A stretch of 64,000 bases of DNA from Strigamia acuminata (Eukaryota > Arthropoda > Chilopoda > Geophilomorpha > Linotaeniidae). The translations under genes were made by a program, and so were the position numbers. The stretch covers positions 1,736,001 to 1,800,000 of the forward strand of contig OX442316.1 in assembly GCA_949358305.1 (NCBI GenBank). The letters are read 5' to 3'. Every line of letters begins with the position of its first letter. Within the stretch, counting starts at the first letter, position 1. Below the pieces are notes generated by a model, which saw only the letters and a program-made list of their open reading frames with translations, made no database searches and had not been told where the DNA came from. Below, piece after piece: positions 36,430 to 64,000 of this stretch.

Positions 36430-39400
36430 ATGGTACGCGTGTACGAGATAAAGAGGCGAGCGCTCACGACGGCCATTGCTGCTGCCAACGCCCTGATGAC
36501 CACTATCACCACGGGAGTCAACAACGCAGCCCTATTGTCGAAGGACGAACTCGCCCTTTGGTCGCAACAACTCAACCAAAAAATGTTGAGAGCACAAAAG
36601 TCGTTTGAAGTCAGTTTGGAGCAAGCCAAGTCGGAACACGAGATCGATGAAACAATGGGCGATATGGATGCAGTGGAAGACAGAGCAGCCGCTACAAAGG
36701 CAACGATAGACAGGTACATTCGATTAAATTACCCACCTGTTCCACCTGTAGTCGACGCTCCGCTACCCGCACCCACGCCGATTGACCACGACGCGCTCGT
36801 CGCCGCTGTGACCGCCGCTGTGACCGCCACCGCTCGAGCCACTCCGCCGCCCGTAATCCACCAAAACGTAAGAAGAAAACCGCTAGAAATTCCAAGGTTC
36901 GACGGGAAACGACCCGAGGACTGGGGGGGTTTCTGGAAGACTTTTTGCGTGCAAGTCGCGGACGACGTGACACTCGACGAGGAGCAAAAACTGCTGCACT
37001 TACGCGCTCACCTGCTCGGCGACGCGATGGAGGAAATTAGAACACTCGAAATAAACGCCGCTAACTACGCCGTGGCTGTAAACCGACTGACGAAAAAATA
37101 CTGTGATCGGGCAGTGTTGGAAAACAGGTTTTTGTCTAACCTATTAAATTTGCCAATTATTAGCAGTGAACGAGACATTGTTGGACTACAAAAGCTGCAC
37201 CGACACGTGGAAATAAACGTGGAAAACCTGTCAAATATCGAGGTCCCGCTCGTAGAAATTCAGCGCATGCTGTTTCCTGTCTTAGCCGCAGCCATTCCAA
37301 GAACCGTGATGCGCAAATACGATGACGACTGCGACGGCGAACGATCGGTAATAAGATTAATGTCATGGGTACGAGAATTTTTGTTGAAGGAAAACCGTTA
37401 CGAAATGATGATAAACCAACAAAAAACGAACAAACCACCCACGTCAACTGAACCGACCAAAGGAAACGGAGATTCGAAGGGGAAGCCACATCGACGCAGA
37501 GGAGGAGCCAAGGAGAGTTCCGTCAACTCACTCTCAGTGGTAACAAATAAATGTCAATTTTGTTCTTCCAATGAACACAGCAGAAAAACGTGCCCACTCA
37601 CGGTGGAAGAGCGAAGGAGGAAAATTCAATCACAAGGAACCTGCATGAGATGTTTAGGCAGAACACCCCATAAAACTGAAGACTGCCGTACCACCATGAA
37701 ATGCTTCCGATGTGACGGATTACATCACACTCAAATCTGCGATCAACCACGAGTCAACCCGATCGACAACACTGCCCCAAAAGTACACGCCTCTGCCGTC
37801 GTGAGTAAAACCAAGAAATACGAATTTTTAATGGTGATGATGGTGAACGTGATTGGCGAAAAAATAACGAAACCAGCCGTGTGCTACGTCGATGGCGGAG
37901 CACAACGGACATTTATAAGAACTGACCTGTCGAGAAAACTAAATCTGAAAATTATAGGAACTGAGCAAATGACTTTATCCGTGTTTGGTCGCGAGCCGAC
38001 GACTGGAGTCCACAACAAAGTGGAATTAACCCTCACTCCGACGCACGCCAAGACGCCTCGCGTCACAATCGAAGCCGTGGAAATCTCACACGTGACGTCA
38101 ACACCCTGCGAAGTCCCGAACGAATATTTGAACAAAAAATTGGAGGAGAAAGGAGTCCAAGTGGCGTGCAAACAGGTGGCCCTACATTCCGACGAGGTGG
38201 ATCTGTTAATCGGAGTTGACAATTACTGGAAAATCACGACGAAAAGGACTGAATTCATCGAGGACAACTTAATAGCTGTCAACACGAATTTTGGATGGAC
38301 ACTGCACGGGCAAACAACCAATGGCGTCCACATCCTGGCGTCAACAGTAAGAACAAATCGAATAACCCTTGTACGTTCTACAGATGACATTATGAAGAAG
38401 CTGTGGGAATTGGAAGCCATCGGAATTCAACACGAGTCAATGGCCGACACGGACGAAGCAGAAGTTCTACGCAAATTTGACGAGTCGATACGATGGACAG
38501 GAAAGAATTACTCAGTAGCACTGCCATGGATCGTCGACAGCAACGAACTCGAAGACAATTTTGCAATTGCCGAACAACGCTTCTTGAACCTGCTCAGAAA
38601 ATTCCGACGACAGCCCAACTTATATTTGGAGTATAAGAAGGTCATCGAGGAACAGCTAGAACAAGGCATCGTTGAAGAAGTGACCGGAGACACGTCCAAC
38701 CCAATTTATTACATGCCACACAGGCCAATAATAAAAGAAGAGCGAGTTACGACAAAACTGAGGATCGTGTTCGACGCGTCAGCCCATCGAAAGGGGCAGC
38801 TATCGCTAAACGATTGCCTGTCCAAAGGTATAAACTTTTTGCCGTCCCTAATCGTTGTATTGATGAAATTTAGACTCCGAAAAATCGCTGAGACGTCGGA
38901 TATTCGCAAGGCGTTCCACATGATCGAAATTGAAGTAAAGGATCGAGACGTAACACGTTTTCTGTGGGTTTGCGCAGACTGGGACGGAACGGGACGAGCC
39001 AAAATTCGAGTACTACGCCAAACACGCGTTCTCTTCGGCGCAGCGCCCAGCCCTTTCCTTTTAAATGCAACCATCAAACGCCACATCAAGATCTACCAAG
39101 ACAAATATCCCGCCACATACGAATTACTTTGCCGATTTTTATACGTGGACGATTTGATCACGTCGGTGGACGACATTGACCAGGCAGTGAGGACATTCGA
39201 ACAAGCTCGCGAAATGCTCTCATCAGCCGGCATGCAACTGGTAAAATGGCAGACTAATTCTCCTGAACTGCGCGAAATATTCAGAAAAGAAGATCCTGCA
39301 GATGCAAAGGTGACATCAAATGAAGAATCCAAAGTGCTGGGACTGAAATGGGATCCAACTTCAGACAAACTGAGTCTACAAATCGAAAATATATCGAGCG

Positions 39401-41697
39401 TGGACAGCACAACAGTGACGAAAAGAGAAGTAGTCCAAATCTCCGCCCAGATATTTGACCCACTCGGATTCGTCACGCCATTCACCGTCACTGCAAGAAT
39501 CTTTTTCCAATCACTTTGGCTGAGAAAATTGGAATGGGATGAAAAATTGGATGATGCTCTTAGACTCAACTGGCTTAAATGGGCAGAACAAATTCCAAAA
39601 TTGAGTGAATTCCAAATTCCAAGATGGCTGGGAGTGAAAAATGAAATGAATTGCGAGATCCATATTTTTTCCGATGCAAGCCCCAAGGCGTACGGTGCTG
39701 TCGCCTACATTCAAGACACCACGGAAGACTTAATCAATTCCTTTTTTATTTTTTCTAAATGTAGGGTGGCACCAGTCAAGCCATTAACATTGCCAAAATT
39801 GGAACTAATGGGAGCTTTGGTGGCAGTCCGCATGGCCGACCAAATTAAAGAGGTGACAAGATGCCGTGAAATCCATTACTGGACCGACTCCCAAATATGC
39901 ATACATTGGATCCGCAACACAGCTAAAAGGCCGCCAACATTTATACAGAACAGAGTGCTGGAGATCCGAGAAAAGTCAAAAATCGACAATTGGCGTCACG
40001 TACCGGGCATCGACAACCCTGCTGACCGCTTGACACGAGGCCTGATGGTCGACGAATTGATGACCGACCAGCTGTGGTGGAACGGACCAGATTGGATGCG
40101 AGGCCCTCGTGACGATTGGCCGAATTCGAATGTGGAAATTGCAGACGAGTCGGACGAGGACGACATCGAAACTCACATCGAATCCCTCCAAGTCATTAAT
40201 ACTGAATTTATTTTCTCCAAATTTAGCTCGTTCAGTCGATTACGACGGGTCACGGCTTGGATGCTGAGATTCGCCGCCAATACACGAACTGTCGACGTCT
40301 CAAATAAGATTCGAGGACCATTGACCGTCGTCGAACTCAAACAGGCCGAGACGACGCTGATCCGAGCTGCACAAAGAGAATGTTACGGGATCGAGATGAC
40401 ACGACTACAAAACGAAAGGCCGTTGACCGACTCGCAACTGCAAAACTTAAACGTTTATCTAGACGTTTCTGGCGTGCTCAAATTGGACACTCGACTCAGG
40501 AACTCCAAAGACGCCATCACTGCAAACTCCCCCGTGCTTCTCCCGTCCGATCACGCACTCACCAAATTAATTTTATCGTTTTCACATTCTCAGGTTTTCC
40601 ATTGCGGTTTGACAGCCACCCTGGCATACTTCCGTCAGAATTACTGGACGCCAGCCGCGAGGAGAACCTTGAAAACAATCCTAAATAAGTGTGTGACTTG
40701 CAAGAGAATAAATGGACGATTGATGAGAGAGGTGCCCGGACAACTACCTTTTGATCGAGTGTCACAGTGCAGTCCATTCGCCATTACCGGAGTCGATTTT
40801 GCAGGCCCAATCATCGTACGAGGAAGGAAGACGAAGGCATACATCGCTCTCTTCACCTGCGCCAATATTCGAGCAGTGCACCTAGAACTGATCCCGTCAC
40901 TGACCACTTCAGACTTCGTAGGCGTGCTAGAACGCTTCATCAGCCGACGAGGGATGCCTAGGACCATCTACAGTGACAACGGGACGACGTTCCATCGTAC
41001 AAACCGTGAACTGAACGCTCTGCTGCGAAATACGAAAGACGACTCCGTACATAATTTCCTAACTCAAAAGGGAATTGAGTGGAAATTTATTGTTGAGAAT
41101 GCTCCTTGGTGGGGGGGATTTTGGGAGAGGATGATTCAAACTGTCAAATCTTGTTTAAAAAAAACGATAGGATCAGCCTCTCTCAACTTCTTTCAATTGG
41201 AAACTTTACTCACTCAGGTAGAAGCTATCATCAACAAAAGACCTATCACTTACATCTATGACGCGCCAAACGAACCCGAAGCGCTCACACCGGCCCATTT
41301 TTTGACGGGAACTAACCTAACGAGTTTGCCATCTGCTGAAGACGCTGCCTCGAACGAACCGACTCAGCAGTCATTTATCCACCAATGGAAGAGACGTCAA
41401 AGCATCTTGATGGACTTTTGGCGACGATGGTCTCGTGAGTATTTGGTCGACTTAAAGAGACAAGTGGGAAAACCAAATACTTGTCAACTGCAAATGGGAG
41501 ATGTAGTGTTGGTGGAAGATTTACTAAAATCTAGAATCAATTGGAAAATGGCACGCGTCGTCAGTATACACCCCAGTAAGGATGGTGTGACACGTTCATG
41601 CGAACTTTTAATGCCTAATGGTAATAAATTTAGGCGACCTATTCAACGTTTGATAAAAATGGAGATTCACCCCGGTCCTGTGCCGCCGGCAGTGTGA
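36430..41697 (+). CDS. BEL/Pao Gag-Pol polyprotein (1,755 aa)
   Basis: One ORF encodes all retrotransposition functions. In order: a Gag region (about 150-310, with LEIPRFDGKRPEDWGGFW); three CCHC zinc knuckles (375-435: CQFC, CMRC, CFRC); an aspartic-protease-like segment near 488, reading VDGGAQRTFI instead of the usual D-S/T-G; reverse transcriptase (about 775-960) with YVDD at 905; RNase H from about 1080 with FSDASP, LPKLELMGAL, WTDSQ and NPAD; an integrase HHCC finger (about 1375-1435); and a DDE core with Asp1456, Asp1516 and Glu1566. A C-terminal domain (WKRRQSILMDFW to RRPIQRL) is typical of BEL. The ATG at 36430 is the first after the PBS. The stop TGA (41695-41697) lies inside the first bases of the 3' LTR. 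No frameshift or premature stop. Confidence 0.97.
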   Translation: MVRVYEIKRRALTTAIAAANALMTTITTGVNNAALLSKDELALWSQQLNQKMLRAQKSFEVSLEQAKSEHEIDETMGDMDAVEDRAAATKATIDRYIRLNYPPVPPVVDAPLPAPTPIDHDALVAAVTAAVTATARATPPPVIHQNVRRKPLEIPRFDGKRPEDWGGFWKTFCVQVADDVTLDEEQKLLHLRAHLLGDAMEEIRTLEINAANYAVAVNRLTKKYCDRAVLENRFLSNLLNLPIISSERDIVGLQKLHRHVEINVENLSNIEVPLVEIQRMLFPVLAAAIPRTVMRKYDDDCDGERSVIRLMSWVREFLLKENRYEMMINQQKTNKPPTSTEPTKGNGDSKGKPHRRRGGAKESSVNSLSVVTNKCQFCSSNEHSRKTCPLTVEERRRKIQSQGTCMRCLGRTPHKTEDCRTTMKCFRCDGLHHTQICDQPRVNPIDNTAPKVHASAVVSKTKKYEFLMVMMVNVIGEKITKPAVCYVDGGAQRTFIRTDLSRKLNLKIIGTEQMTLSVFGREPTTGVHNKVELTLTPTHAKTPRVTIEAVEISHVTSTPCEVPNEYLNKKLEEKGVQVACKQVALHSDEVDLLIGVDNYWKITTKRTEFIEDNLIAVNTNFGWTLHGQTTNGVHILASTVRTNRITLVRSTDDIMKKLWELEAIGIQHESMADTDEAEVLRKFDESIRWTGKNYSVALPWIVDSNELEDNFAIAEQRFLNLLRKFRRQPNLYLEYKKVIEEQLEQGIVEEVTGDTSNPIYYMPHRPIIKEERVTTKLRIVFDASAHRKGQLSLNDCLSKGINFLPSLIVVLMKFRLRKIAETSDIRKAFHMIEIEVKDRDVTRFLWVCADWDGTGRAKIRVLRQTRVLFGAAPSPFLLNATIKRHIKIYQDKYPATYELLCRFLYVDDLITSVDDIDQAVRTFEQAREMLSSAGMQLVKWQTNSPELREIFRKEDPADAKVTSNEESKVLGLKWDPTSDKLSLQIENISSVDSTTVTKREVVQISAQIFDPLGFVTPFTVTARIFFQSLWLRKLEWDEKLDDALRLNWLKWAEQIPKLSEFQIPRWLGVKNEMNCEIHIFSDASPKAYGAVAYIQDTTEDLINSFFIFSKCRVAPVKPLTLPKLELMGALVAVRMADQIKEVTRCREIHYWTDSQICIHWIRNTAKRPPTFIQNRVLEIREKSKIDNWRHVPGIDNPADRLTRGLMVDELMTDQLWWNGPDWMRGPRDDWPNSNVEIADESDEDDIETHIESLQVINTEFIFSKFSSFSRLRRVTAWMLRFAANTRTVDVSNKIRGPLTVVELKQAETTLIRAAQRECYGIEMTRLQNERPLTDSQLQNLNVYLDVSGVLKLDTRLRNSKDAITANSPVLLPSDHALTKLILSFSHSQVFHCGLTATLAYFRQNYWTPAARRTLKTILNKCVTCKRINGRLMREVPGQLPFDRVSQCSPFAITGVDFAGPIIVRGRKTKAYIALFTCANIRAVHLELIPSLTTSDFVGVLERFISRRGMPRTIYSDNGTTFHRTNRELNALLRNTKDDSVHNFLTQKGIEWKFIVENAPWWGGFWERMIQTVKSCLKKTIGSASLNFFQLETLLTQVEAIINKRPITYIYDAPNEPEALTPAHFLTGTNLTSLPSAEDAASNEPTQQSFIHQWKRRQSILMDFWRRWSREYLVDLKRQVGKPNTCQLQMGDVVLVEDLLKSRINWKMARVVSIHPSKDGVTRSCELLMPNGNKFRRPIQRLIKMEIHPGPVPPAV

Positions 41698-60768: not shown

Positions 60769-61254
60769 CTAAGGCATAGAAAAATGTGAGGTTGTGGTGA
60801 CCTCAAATATTCCTATTTGAGTGCGCACCATATTTCCAAATTGTCTTATAAACATATTCAACAAACTTATATGTTTTGTTTCAATGTAAATTGAAATAAA
60901 ACATACATTAATAAAATATAAAACAAGACACAATATTACCCAAATAATATTGTGTTTTGCAGCAAGTTTTGGCCCAGCAACAGCGTCAACCAATCGCGCT
61001 GCAGCGTGCATTGCTTTGATGATGCTGCTAGGCGTGTGCCTGGGCGGAGCATCCCTTCCCCTCGCGCGTGCCCGGCTCGATTGTTGCACACGACCCGAAG
61101 GCGGCCGTGTGTGATCTTCATGCAACTCGTCATCTGCGCAGCTTTTCTGAGCAGATTTAGAAGTGAGCCAAACGGTTTTGGCCCACTCTTCCCGCACTCT
61201 TGATTCCACCTCCAAACTGTTCACAACCGTGTCAAACTTCTGCCAAAACTGCAA
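60769..61254 (-). CDS. Unidentified ORF (161 codons), GC-rich 5' half
   Basis: The ATG is at 61254. The first 100 codons have higher GC than the surroundings and a plausible protein composition (start MQFWQKFDTVVNSLEVESRV), with Arg/Pro-rich DHTRPPSGRV after. The rest is AT-rich with a hydrophobic stretch near the end that may be chance. I recognise no family. It lies just outside the putative Gypsy 5' region on the opposite strand. Could be a gene fragment, a first exon (GTAATATTG follows near 60945) or a spurious frame. Confidence 0.25.
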   Translation of the reverse strand: MQFWQKFDTVVNSLEVESRVREEWAKTVWLTSKSAQKSCADDELHEDHTRPPSGRVQQSSRARARGRDAPPRHTPSSIIKAMHAAARLVDAVAGPKLAAKHNIIWVILCLVLYFINVCFISIYIETKHISLLNMFIRQFGNMVRTQIGIFEVTTTSHFSMP

Positions 61255-61330
61255 AGTGTGATCTGTGATTCTTGGACGAATTGAGTTTCATCGCTGGTCT
61301 GTACCCACTGTACGGAATAGCAACTTTCTA

Positions 61331-61585
61331 GCTTGAATTACTACGAGTAATTTAAGCCATTTCTGTGTGTGAAACTAACATCGAGTTTACTCTGTTAGTT
61401 TGAAGGCTTTGTGTCGAGTTTAACTCCACAAGGCGAATTGTGTTAAGACGGATTGTTACGTCGAGCTTGCTCCGTAATAATCAAATCGCTGTGTGCAAGA
61501 CGTATTCTCGTGTTGAGCTTGCTCCGCGAGGATTTTTAGTATATTTTAGCAAAGTATTTTAGCGTCGAGTTTACTCCGCTAAAAT
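61331..61585 (+). ncRNA. Array of five matched hairpins plus one upstream stem-loop
   Basis: Five hairpins at 61372-61401, 61406-61434, 61451-61482, 61504-61533 and 61556-61585 share one architecture: a lower stem of 8-10 bp, a 5' bulge of TC (TT in the fourth), an upper GAG/CTC stem and a 4-5-nt loop (TTTA, TTTAA or CTTG). Lower stems differ yet pair: AAACTAACA/TGTTAGTTT, GCTTTGTG/CACAAGGC, GATTGTTACG/CGTAATAATC, ATTCTCGTG/CGCGAGGAT and ATTTTAGCG/CGCTAAAAT. An 11-bp hairpin with a different loop (GCTTGAATTAC/GTAATTTAAGC) precedes at 61331-61357. This covariation implies selection for structure, most simply in RNA. It lies 290-500 nt upstream of the PBS, probably in LTR or leader. Confidence 0.8.
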
Positions 61586-61872
61586 CCCGCGCTCACACGA
61601 CGCCATCGACGCCATTTTGGAGCCAACGGTCAACTGTGAGTGTCCAAGTACGAAGAGAAACCAGATCGACCCAGTCATTACACTTATTATTTCGCATTAT
61701 ATTCGGGTGTATTTAAAACGATTAAAACAATCTAATTTTTCCTTTACTCTGTGTAAAATCATTCCCCTAGACAACCATTTGGCCACAGAGTAGAAGTCCT
61801 GTACGGCATCTCACCGACGATTGCTTATTAAATTTATATAATTTAATAAGTAAAAACCCGGATCGCCGCACT

Positions 61873-61890
61873 TGGGGGCCCGTCCGGGAT
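61873..61890 (+). promoter_or_regulatory. Gypsy primer binding site, proline-tRNA type
   Basis: TGGGGGCCCGTCCGGGAT lies 2 nt after the inferred LTR end. It differs at one position from the proline-tRNA PBS known in gammaretroviruses. Confidence 0.75.
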
Positions 61891-61962
61891 TGTTTTGATT
61901 ATTAAAATCCGATTTTTGCGAAAAAATCCTTTATTTCCATTGTTCTTTTTCAATTTGACAAA

Positions 61963-64000
61963 ATGGCGACGCCAATGCAAATTGTAAAACGACAACGAGG
62001 TCGACCAAGCACTCAGAAACGAGCAGCGACGGTTTTGCCGGCTCTCGAGCCTGAAATGCTTATGGAGAAAATTATTTCTGAAGAAATAACACCAGTTCCA
62101 GATCCGAAACAACTTAAGGATGCTGAAAATGAAGTTGCTAGAGCATTAAGCGCTTCAAGTGCGAGTTCTAACGACCAAGAACTCCCGCCACTTCCACTGG
62201 AGGAAGTGGAAAATACGTTACGTGAAATGGAAAGTGAATCGTCTCACGAATCACCTCCTCGCATGACCATGTTGGATGCTTTGAGAAATCAAGCACGCCA
62301 AGATGGCGCCCAAATAACGGACGACATGACGGTGGAAGAGATTCATCGCGCCATGATACGACTTCACACTGACCGAGCCGTTTCAAATTTACAATTTGAA
62401 ATGGAACGAAAAGAAGCTGAGCTTCAACAACAAAAAGCGGAGGTTGAGCTTCAACACATGGAACTCAATCGACAAAATGAGGAATTTCTAGCCCAAAAAG
62501 CTAGAGAATACAGATTAAAAGGTGAAGTGGAAGATCTTTCTAAAATGAATACTAGAAATGAACTTTCAATTCGCTCACACCAAGAGGCGCGAAGACAGCT
62601 CGAGCTTACCAAAAGTAAGCTGGAGCAGAAAAATAAAGAATTGATTGATTTGGCAGACCACTACCAACGCAATCATAATCAACTAGTGAGATATGCTGCT
62701 GAATTAGACACACGTGCTAAAACACAGCGTACTCGCGAAAGCAAAATAGCTAAGCGTGAAGACGAGATTTTCCACTCGCTGGATCAACCCAGTACGAGCG
62801 GACAAGTCAAGTCTAGCGGCCCTGCTAAGCGATTACAACCAGAATCGCAAAATCAAATAAACGAGAATGAAATTCTCCGAGCTGATTTGTTACGCGCTCA
62901 AGAAGAGCTTGCAGAAATGAAAGACCGTTTGCAAGCAAGAAATTATACTGACCAATTGGTGCAACCAGAAATGGCTGCGCCAACTGTCCCTATTTTGACT
63001 CCCGAAACAATAACAATTTCTGTTGTTTCAGAGTTAAGTAGCCAATCTGGATTATCGAGTGATGACGACCAACGTTCGCGTCGTCGCCATCGCTCAAAAA
63101 GAAAACGTCCTTCAGATTCTGAGGAACGGAGAGCTGATCGCAATCCGCTCCCTGGTAATCGAAACCCTATTTTTCACAACAGTGACCGACTGTTGGGGAT
63201 AGTAGACGATCGAAATAGACGGCATGAAACTGGTATTCATGTTACTCGAACGATACCACTGACTCAACAGCAAGACTCGTCAAAAAGAAGTCGACGAGAC
63301 ACCAATCCAACACGCGAACCGCCGGACGGACATGAAAGCCCGCCAGGTGGGGGTCAGTATAGAAGAAATCCACCAGATGGAGGAAATCCAGATGGACATG
63401 GAGATGGACCACCTGGAGGTGGACGTCGACCGCCCGACGATGACGGCGACCCACCCGACCCACCTGAAACACCACATTTTAACACGCCTTCAAATTCACA
63501 ATCTGATTCAAGGTCGGATTCTGATGTGAATGCGCAACAAGAACGCGATAATCGACATCGATCTCATCGACGTCGACATCGAGGCCATTCTTCTCGGCGT
63601 AATACACATTATTACACTGCTGAAGAAATTGATCGATTATTAGCTGATCGTCGATCTTCCGATCGATCTGACGCTACTGCCGATAATGCTGATATTGCAT
63701 TACGACAAAAAATTGCACAATATACTGCCAACAACTGGACTCACGATCTAGTTGATGAAAGAACTATTAGATGGGATCACATCAAACCCGCTTTATTCGA
63801 TGGAGAATGGGAAGCTGGATCCACTCTTTTAGATGAAGTGTTACGAATTTCAAGGTTGAATGGCATTGCATGTCACACTGCTTTGAAAAGAGTAGTACCA
63901 AAAGCTCTTATAGATCGAGCTGAGAAATGGTTTTATTCTAAACAATTTCAAAACTGGAATCACTTTGTAGAGGAATTCATGACTGAATATGGGGAGTCAA
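61963..64000 (+). CDS. Gypsy-like Gag with long coiled-coil N-terminal region (partial, 679 codons)
   Basis: The frame is open from the ATG at 61963 to the window end with no stop. The ATG follows the PBS by 72 nt (GACAAAATGG, good context). In order: an N-terminal basic segment with an AT-hook-like KRQRGRPS core (residues 9-16); acidic linker; predicted coiled coil about 123-276 (ERKEAELQQQKAEVELQHME) and 296-326; basic RSRRRHRSKRKR about 372; a Gly/Pro/Asp-rich linker; an RHRSHRRRHRGHSSRR patch; then from about 577 a capsid-like domain with NWTHDLVDERTIRWDHIKPA and LFDGEWEAGSTLLDEVLRIS, the Ty3/Gypsy Gag pattern. Nearly 570 residues before the capsid is unusually long. Protease and RT would follow beyond the window. 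Confidence 0.8.
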   Translation, partial: MATPMQIVKRQRGRPSTQKRAATVLPALEPEMLMEKIISEEITPVPDPKQLKDAENEVARALSASSASSNDQELPPLPLEEVENTLREMESESSHESPPRMTMLDALRNQARQDGAQITDDMTVEEIHRAMIRLHTDRAVSNLQFEMERKEAELQQQKAEVELQHMELNRQNEEFLAQKAREYRLKGEVEDLSKMNTRNELSIRSHQEARRQLELTKSKLEQKNKELIDLADHYQRNHNQLVRYAAELDTRAKTQRTRESKIAKREDEIFHSLDQPSTSGQVKSSGPAKRLQPESQNQINENEILRADLLRAQEELAEMKDRLQARNYTDQLVQPEMAAPTVPILTPETITISVVSELSSQSGLSSDDDQRSRRRHRSKRKRPSDSEERRADRNPLPGNRNPIFHNSDRLLGIVDDRNRRHETGIHVTRTIPLTQQQDSSKRSRRDTNPTREPPDGHESPPGGGQYRRNPPDGGNPDGHGDGPPGGGRRPPDDDGDPPDPPETPHFNTPSNSQSDSRSDSDVNAQQERDNRHRSHRRRHRGHSSRRNTHYYTAEEIDRLLADRRSSDRSDATADNADIALRQKIAQYTANNWTHDLVDERTIRWDHIKPALFDGEWEAGSTLLDEVLRISRLNGIACHTALKRVVPKALIDRAEKWFYSKQFQNWNHFVEEFMTEYGES

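Follow-up and report, generated by a model that had tools for sequence, protein, structure and literature searches.

We analyzed a window of 64,000 nt from Strigamia acuminata (the whole stretch examined; OX442316.1, positions 1,736,001 to 1,800,000, forward strand) and focused on its 3′ end, which carries the 5′ LTR, the primer binding site (PBS) and the beginning of gag of a retrotransposon (Table 1). In the continuation of gag (L025) a Retrotrans_gag domain and a CCHC zinc knuckle were found, the pol domains stand in the order RVT_1, RNase H, integrase zinc domain and rve, the protease match is weak (PF13975, E 0.011, under the cut-off) and a polypurine tract lies before the 3′ LTR. LTRs, PBS (which we take to be of the tRNA-Pro type), polypurine tract, target duplication and pol domain order are those of a Ty3/Gypsy element, and its insertion is recent, the two LTRs being identical along all 1,078 bp. 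A first-pass annotation, made from the letters alone, had described an array of hairpins upstream of a Gypsy PBS; this array sits inside the LTR of the recently active Ty3/Gypsy retrotransposon and is also found in the 3′ LTR. The element has a third ORF (L026 1827-3971, 714 aa, TTG start), which is Arg/Ser-rich and for which no homologue was found at E 0.001 among 7,994 candidates scored, no Pfam match to E 0.1 and no PDB match to E 1. Elsewhere in the window we observed a second retroelement with a fully open BEL/Pao-type ORF of 1755 aa (36430-41697) and, at 641-1777, a probable host gene, whose 378-aa ORF has a 7-transmembrane domain of the secretin family.

Table 1. Features of the Ty3/Gypsy element, in window positions
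Feature	Position	Strand	Basis or remark
4-bp target duplication AGGT	60789-60792		AGGT on both sides of the element
5′ LTR, TG..CA, 1078 bp	60793..61870	+	100% identical to the 3′ LTR (L009 547-1624)
ACTCTTGA, candidate core-promoter or start-site motif	61196..61203	+	Recurrence; second window copy at 61185
AUG-free stretch to gag start, read as 5′ leader (R, U5 and untranslated region)	61243..61962	+	ATG counts
H0, sixth hairpin of another plan, 10-bp stem	61332..61356	+	Folding; precedes the five
H1, stem AAACTAACA/TGTTAGTTT, bulge UC, GAG-UUUA-CUC	61372..61401	+	Folding; two-sided changes at three pairs across copies
H2, stem GCTTTGTG/CACAAGGC, bulge UC, GAG-UUUAA-CUC	61406..61434	+	Folding; one G-C to T-A double change
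H3, stem GATTGTTACG/CGTAATAATC, bulge UC, GAG-CUUG-CUC	61451..61482	+	Folding
H4, stem ATTCTCGTG/CGCGAGGAT, bulge UU, GAG-CUUG-CUC	61504..61533	+	Folding
H5, stem ATTTTAGCG/CGCTAAAAT, bulge UC, GAG-UUUA-CUC	61556..61585	+	Folding; two-sided changes at two pairs
Probable polyadenylation module ATTAAA, putative end of R	61706..61745	+	Related LTRs
A/T-rich hairpin ahead of LTR end	61821..61853	+	Inverted repeat; family B counterpart at about -56 from the PBS
PBS TGGGGGCCCGTCCGGGAT	61873..61890	+	322 exact genome matches to TGGGGGCYCGTCCGGGAT, 0 for the pattern reversed
gag ORF, runs past the window end	61963..63999	+	Open frame; Arg/Lys-rich stretches at about residues 363-394 and 527-547

The five hairpins H1-H5 (61372-61585) share one plan, in which a variable stem of 8-10 bp is followed by a U-Y bulge on the 5′ side, a GAG/CUC upper stem and a short loop. 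RNAfold of 61320-61600 (+) recovered all five stem-loops that the first-pass annotation had listed; their starts, reported there as 34-53 nt apart, are spaced by 34, 45, 53 and 52 nt, the bulge is indeed UC four times and UU once, and wobble pairs occur in H2, H3 and H4 as described. Two details have to be corrected: an array beginning at 61331 takes in H0, which follows a different plan, and the YUUR-type loop applies to H1, H3, H4 and H5 but not to H2 with its loop of 5 nt. The minimum free energy of 61320-61600 (+) was -86 compared to -66.5 ± 4.8 in 200 shuffles (z -4.1, one shuffle as low); the minus strand reaches z -4.1 too, but mostly with other structures across the region. Every unit kept a mean pair probability of at least 0.92 when folded in four longer contexts, among them the presumed leader (61196-61962) and the complete LTR. 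In H1, H3, H4 and H5 the loop opens and closes with U..A or C..G, two bases that covary in H1, so that an upper stem of 4 bp with only 2 nt in the loop is an alternative reading. A 30-nt repeat with a spacing of 52 nt (80 and 67% identical) joins H3, H4 and H5 and covers the constant head plus the linker AAGACG before H3 and H4. This shared repeat, linker included, points to tandem duplication and subsequent divergence of the stems with pairing kept. The earlier view that structure is preserved on unrelated stems without duplication is therefore right in its first part, as pairing is kept in 36 LTRs, but has to be modified for H3-H5; judged from the sequences, duplication followed by compensated stem divergence explains the array.

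A genome search with 61300-61900 yielded 40 scored matches of 427 candidates, and at least 13 of these reach 100% identity (rounded) along the full 601 bases; as each genome search scores 40 of its candidates, the copy numbers are minimum values. The head pattern GTYGAGYTTRCTCC matched the genome 656 times compared to 16 times for the reversed pattern, which is more than chance. The fetched LTRs of the array family (family A) range from 80 to 100% identity, and the number of units shifts by whole hairpins, with seven units in L027 and L028. Lone head matches in L032 and L035 were rejected as arrays, no stem being present. The expectation that other copies carry the array was borne out within the family, where it is kept in 36 LTRs, and in a second LTR family (family C) the same head and bulge are carried by another stem (GAGTCCCG/CGGAACTC, one C.A mismatch), but it does not extend to other elements with the same PBS: the 20 loci inspected from five other LTR clusters all lack the array, these loci being the first 20 outside the array family among 100 listed (of 322). 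For family C, 48 matches gave 32 loci and 30 distinct places; the head was found in 8 of the 30, mostly old fragments, and 6 of 12 heads fold to the plan.

Family B is array-free, and its Gag resembles that of the array family by eye and is equally Arg/Lys-rich. A hairpin comparable to H0 (AGCTTGAATTAGCC..GCTAATTCCAGCT) lies there at a similar distance from the PBS. We also observed in the family B leader, about -510 to -477 from the PBS, a hairpin in which a constant CGCGAA loop stands on changing stems (GCAGCAG/CTGTTGC, GTTGCCG/CGGCAAC, GCAGTAG/CTGCTGC), with 7 of 7 pairs in five of nine loci (L051, L054-L057, L061, L062, L064, L065) and 6 of 7 in the other four. From about -630 to -550 two adjoining hairpins have a common base (WGCT..AGCW) and different tops, the second resembling H0. 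The A/T-rich hairpin ahead of the LTR end differs in stem sequence between the window and family B, with pairing retained. Furthermore, LTRs of several families share CCCTAGACA followed by AAGTC-like and GGCAT bits (61765-61800 in the window), which stands upstream of the poly(A) signal in some cases and downstream of it in others.

Conservation of pairing was analyzed on an unfiltered set of 39 distinct LTRs (6 loci with <900 bp coverage dropped, identical sequences counted once); 36 entered the pairing and tree analyses, with L027, L028 and L030 (extra or rearranged units) left out. In this set, which was not selected for hairpins, 2,306 of the 2,316 ungapped cells in H1-H5 contain a standard pair (2,663 of 2,676 with H0), and L036 at 80% identity still pairs 71 of 74. 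Stems that no longer pair in other copies, which would have spoken against the first-pass annotation, were thus not what we observed. Departures in H1-H5 comprise 131 G.U and 5 A.C (170 versus 5 with H0), and as the 131 would be A.C mismatches on the minus strand, it is the plus-strand RNA that is kept. Changes were counted on a tree built from the LTR outside the array, leaving out pairs gapped in any copy and including H0: all 22 reconstructed two-sided changes, at 8 distinct pairs of which one lies in H0, retain pairing; of 38 one-sided changes that start from the paired state, 30 still pair via G.U and 8 break the pair. H1 occurs in two forms (ACTAACA/TGTTAGT and ATTGACA/TGTCAAT), as does H5 (TTTTAGCG/CGCTAAAA and TTTTGGCA/TGCCAAAA). 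Both H1 forms occur together within the seven-hairpin arrays of L027 and L028, so that they probably derive from a duplicated hairpin pair and were exchanged later; since much of the H1 variation is block exchange between two forms, the number of independent compensations is below 22.

A second alignment comprised the 25 distinct arrays from loci with exactly five hairpins detected (L030 left out). Here 99.8% of the cells pair, compared to 34-44% with slid partners, and the slid controls contained no two-sided changes versus five pairs with such changes in the real registration. Cells with two-sided changes numbered 31 compared to 10.0 in shuffles. The excess in pairs with two-sided changes was modest (5 versus 3.3, reached by 10 of 500 shuffles), and the 18 further pair types were below the shuffle value of 21.0. 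Compensated changes across copies, as they characterize structured RNA, are present, and the array is an RNA structure conserved as plus-strand RNA.

The constant part of the hairpins was resolved base by base in the 39 LTRs. Of 195 heads, 194 have U as the first bulge base and all have a purine beneath the bulge (A 44, G 151), while the second bulge base varies in four of the five units (C, U, rarely A). Mean heterozygosity is 0.011 for GAG/CUC (4 of 30 columns variable), 0.010 for bulge position 1 and 0.391 for bulge position 2; for comparison, it is 0.067 in the lower stems, 0.060 in the 5′ part of the LTR and 0.108 in the linkers. In H1 the outer loop bases flip jointly between U..A and C..G, and the sequence reads CA-UU-GA in 24 of 39 copies and CA-UU-GAGC in 22. 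Five sites in many copies make it legible what is fixed (the first bulge U, GA/UC and the purine below) and what is free (the stem sequence and the second bulge base), and the head and its partner can thus be directly tested with short RNAs and reporters. From near-identical heads on interchangeable stems we infer that the reader recognizes the head and not the stem, and this reader is likeliest a protein.

In order to place the array in the RNA we analyzed the distribution of ATG triplets. In the window copy, 61123-61962 contains no plus-strand ATG compared to 11.3 expected, which makes ATG the most depleted of the 64 triplets in this interval. Among 21 leaders, composed of the window and the 20 loci from the five other LTR clusters (related copies in many cases) and each reaching from -600 relative to the PBS as far as the gag AUG, we counted 9 ATGs versus 174.5 expected, all 9 within L047, L053 and L058, and 249 of the complement CAT versus 228.9 expected. 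Farther upstream (-1100 to -800) the values are 99 versus 139.5 for ATG and 98 versus 133.7 for CAT. The location in a retroelement leader, as claimed before, agrees with the AUG-free leader seen in the window and most of the 20 loci. Within the array family, ATG occurs at 61240 in 21 of 39 LTRs, and between 61243 and 61870 only 4 ATGs are found among the 39, in 3 copies (L033, L036, L077). Such a strand-specific lack of AUG up to gag is the pattern of a scanned 5′ leader, from which we infer that transcription most likely starts upstream of the array, between about 61190 and 61330 and thus about 40-180 nt before H1. The array would then probably belong to R and hence be present at both RNA ends. 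The candidate start-site motif has counterparts elsewhere, as ACTCTT is found at -685 to -698 from the PBS in four of nine family B loci (L051, L055, L057, L065) and at about -875 in L048 and L059, and a similar motif stands upstream of hairpins in L084, L089 and L090. We also considered that TATTTAAA at 61708 might be a TATA box; the array would then lie in U3 and solely in the 3′ UTR. However, at the matching place six family B LTRs and four of five family C LTRs have AATAAA followed by a G/T-rich and a T-rich stretch, so that TATTTAAA, where the window has ATTAAA with a weaker T-rich stretch, is more likely a polyadenylation module at the end of R; a U3 location is also disfavored by the AUG-free leader, which would put the start upstream instead. 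More generally, the lack of AUG offers a simple way to map the transcribed parts of LTRs without transcript data. Within the leader, CGACGCCATTTTG (61607-61619) is complementary at 12 of 13 positions to the gag start region CAAAATGGCGACG (61959-61971), which may reflect a leader pairing or a chance match of the CGCCAT motif; by eye, this pairing with the gag AUG seems shorter or absent in related families.

Several functions were weighed for an array at this position. Dimerisation had been proposed in the first-pass annotation; by kissing loops it is unlikely, as loops of 2-5 nt are too short, and it was rejected. We regard it as highly improbable that the hairpins act as DNA palindromes, either as promoter repeats for a transcription factor or as cruciforms: the head is near-palindromic in DNA and repeated in the LTR, but the bulge is one-sided, the stems vary yet pair, and G.U far outnumbers A.C on the plus strand. 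Repeats for a transcription factor would keep their sequence regardless of flanking complementarity, whereas here the stems stay complementary and the wobbles are strand-specific. Control of translation, in which the hairpins would tune or redirect scanning to the gag AUG (by shunt, entry site or block) and so split translated from packaged RNA, fits a leader that is AUG-free over about 700 nt and therefore apparently scanned, with stable hairpins between the supposed cap and gag. A scanning block, however, needs no invariant head with a free second bulge base, and 21 of 39 copies have the AUG at 61240, so that we consider this function unlikely. A role in RNA export or stability, exerted by the array copy in the 3′ LTR as with the response elements of complex retroviruses, appears doubtful: the array is in the 3′ LTR as well, such LTR elements are reported in HERV-K, and the Arg/Ser-rich third ORF without found relatives could supply a partner, but an RNA-binding role of this ORF is putative.

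An equally unlikely function as translation control, but one with a specific structural basis, is TAR/7SK-like control, in which the heads would be arginine-sandwich bulges that capture an Arg-rich protein on the nascent leader and act on transcription, the partner being encoded by the element or belonging to the host HEXIM/P-TEFb pathway. According to PMC6189040, in TAR and 7SK ASM3 the bulge U caps the A-U pair above, the floor being the base that precedes the bulge, and the secondary structures of TAR and the third bulge of 7SK stem-loop 1 are called identical. At the level of secondary structure the heads show the same arrangement (a U, a second bulge base, a G-C and then an A-U pair above, a paired purine floor), with the first bulge base nearly invariant and the second free, and the array apparently lies in the leader like TAR. 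The host genome has a 7SK gene (58.8 bits with the Arthropod_7SK model, whose cut-off is 44 and which matched none of 14 control genomes) that reads CA-UU-GAUC, close to the H1 variants given above. On the other hand, the motif is short and could match by chance, which is why it is kept as a rival; no Rfam match above threshold was obtained, and Arg-rich Gag is present in array-free families too. Moreover, four of the five window units have a G-C instead of an A-U floor, and in 7SK this engineered change weakened Tat binding five-fold and abolished HEXIM binding (PMC6189040). That the array is an independently built multi-copy TAR, imitating the host 7SK bulge so that an Arg-rich protein of the element or the host controls transcription or handling, is slightly less likely still; if true, we know of no Tat/TAR-like system or 7SK mimic before it outside the retroviruses.

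We therefore favor, as the probable explanation, a structured, multivalent protein-binding RNA element in the 5′ leader of the Ty3/Gypsy element, probably in R and so also at the 3′ end. Five copies of one head (purine-pyrimidine pair, U-Y bulge, GAG/CUC, short loop) would be displayed on stems whose sequence would be irrelevant provided that pairing holds. One RNA would thereby present several equivalent sites for one protein, the multiple copies suggesting avidity, and Gag or a host factor might mark the genomic RNA via the array for packaging or handling. We put marking of genomic RNA first because the array stands before gag and probably at both RNA ends, which is a preference and not a result; within the protein-binding leader reading a putative packaging role is tentative, with translation, transcription or export taking the remainder. 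The array is not generally needed, as the five other LTR clusters, family B among them, do without it, and the similar Arg/Lys-rich Gag of array-free family B means that Gag binding is not favored by co-occurrence. For the same reason a tie between the array and an Arg-rich Gag was rejected. A further point against the favored explanation is that ribosomes scanning the leader would need to get past the hairpins. To our knowledge, RNA elements that select or regulate genomes are hardly known for animal Gypsy retrotransposons, and the array offers a handle on such a head and its partner.

The first-pass annotation knew of no retroelement leader of this form, and our comparisons agree: Rfam 15 gave no match in the window (for 61300-61900 the best E was 0.61, with all five listed below gathering), and no such array was found in the literature titles and abstract beginnings searched, a set with most subscription journals outside its scope. 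Some known systems nevertheless share parts of the plan. Bacterial sRNA protein traps of the CsrB/RsmZ type, free sponges with many hairpins, likewise combine a constant recognition part with variable stems, but their motif is different and the array belongs to a retroelement RNA. Complex retroviruses have response elements such as RmRE and RxRE in their 3′ LTR; the array resembles this class, to which the RcRE of HERV-K also belongs, as a structured LTR RNA with several stem-loops, but it is a simple tandem and not a single branched fold, and a Rec/Rem/Rex-like partner is putative. With HIV TAR, a leader hairpin, and the bulge of 7SK stem-loop 1 the heads share a pyrimidine bulge starting with U, the A-U pair second above and a paired base below; unlike TAR, which has a six-base apical loop at the RNA 5′ end, the array consists of five tandem copies with loops of 2-5 nt and apparently lies off the RNA 5′ end given the start proposed above, and a Tat/cyclin partner would be hypothetical. 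Retroviral Psi leaders bound by Gag are similar in being multi-hairpin 5′ leaders upstream of the gag AUG in an LTR element, but the array is located within the LTR before the PBS, with near-identical heads and loops too short for kissing. Taken together, the array would belong to an already known kind, the structured leader RNAs of LTR elements, while its form appears to be a new variant.
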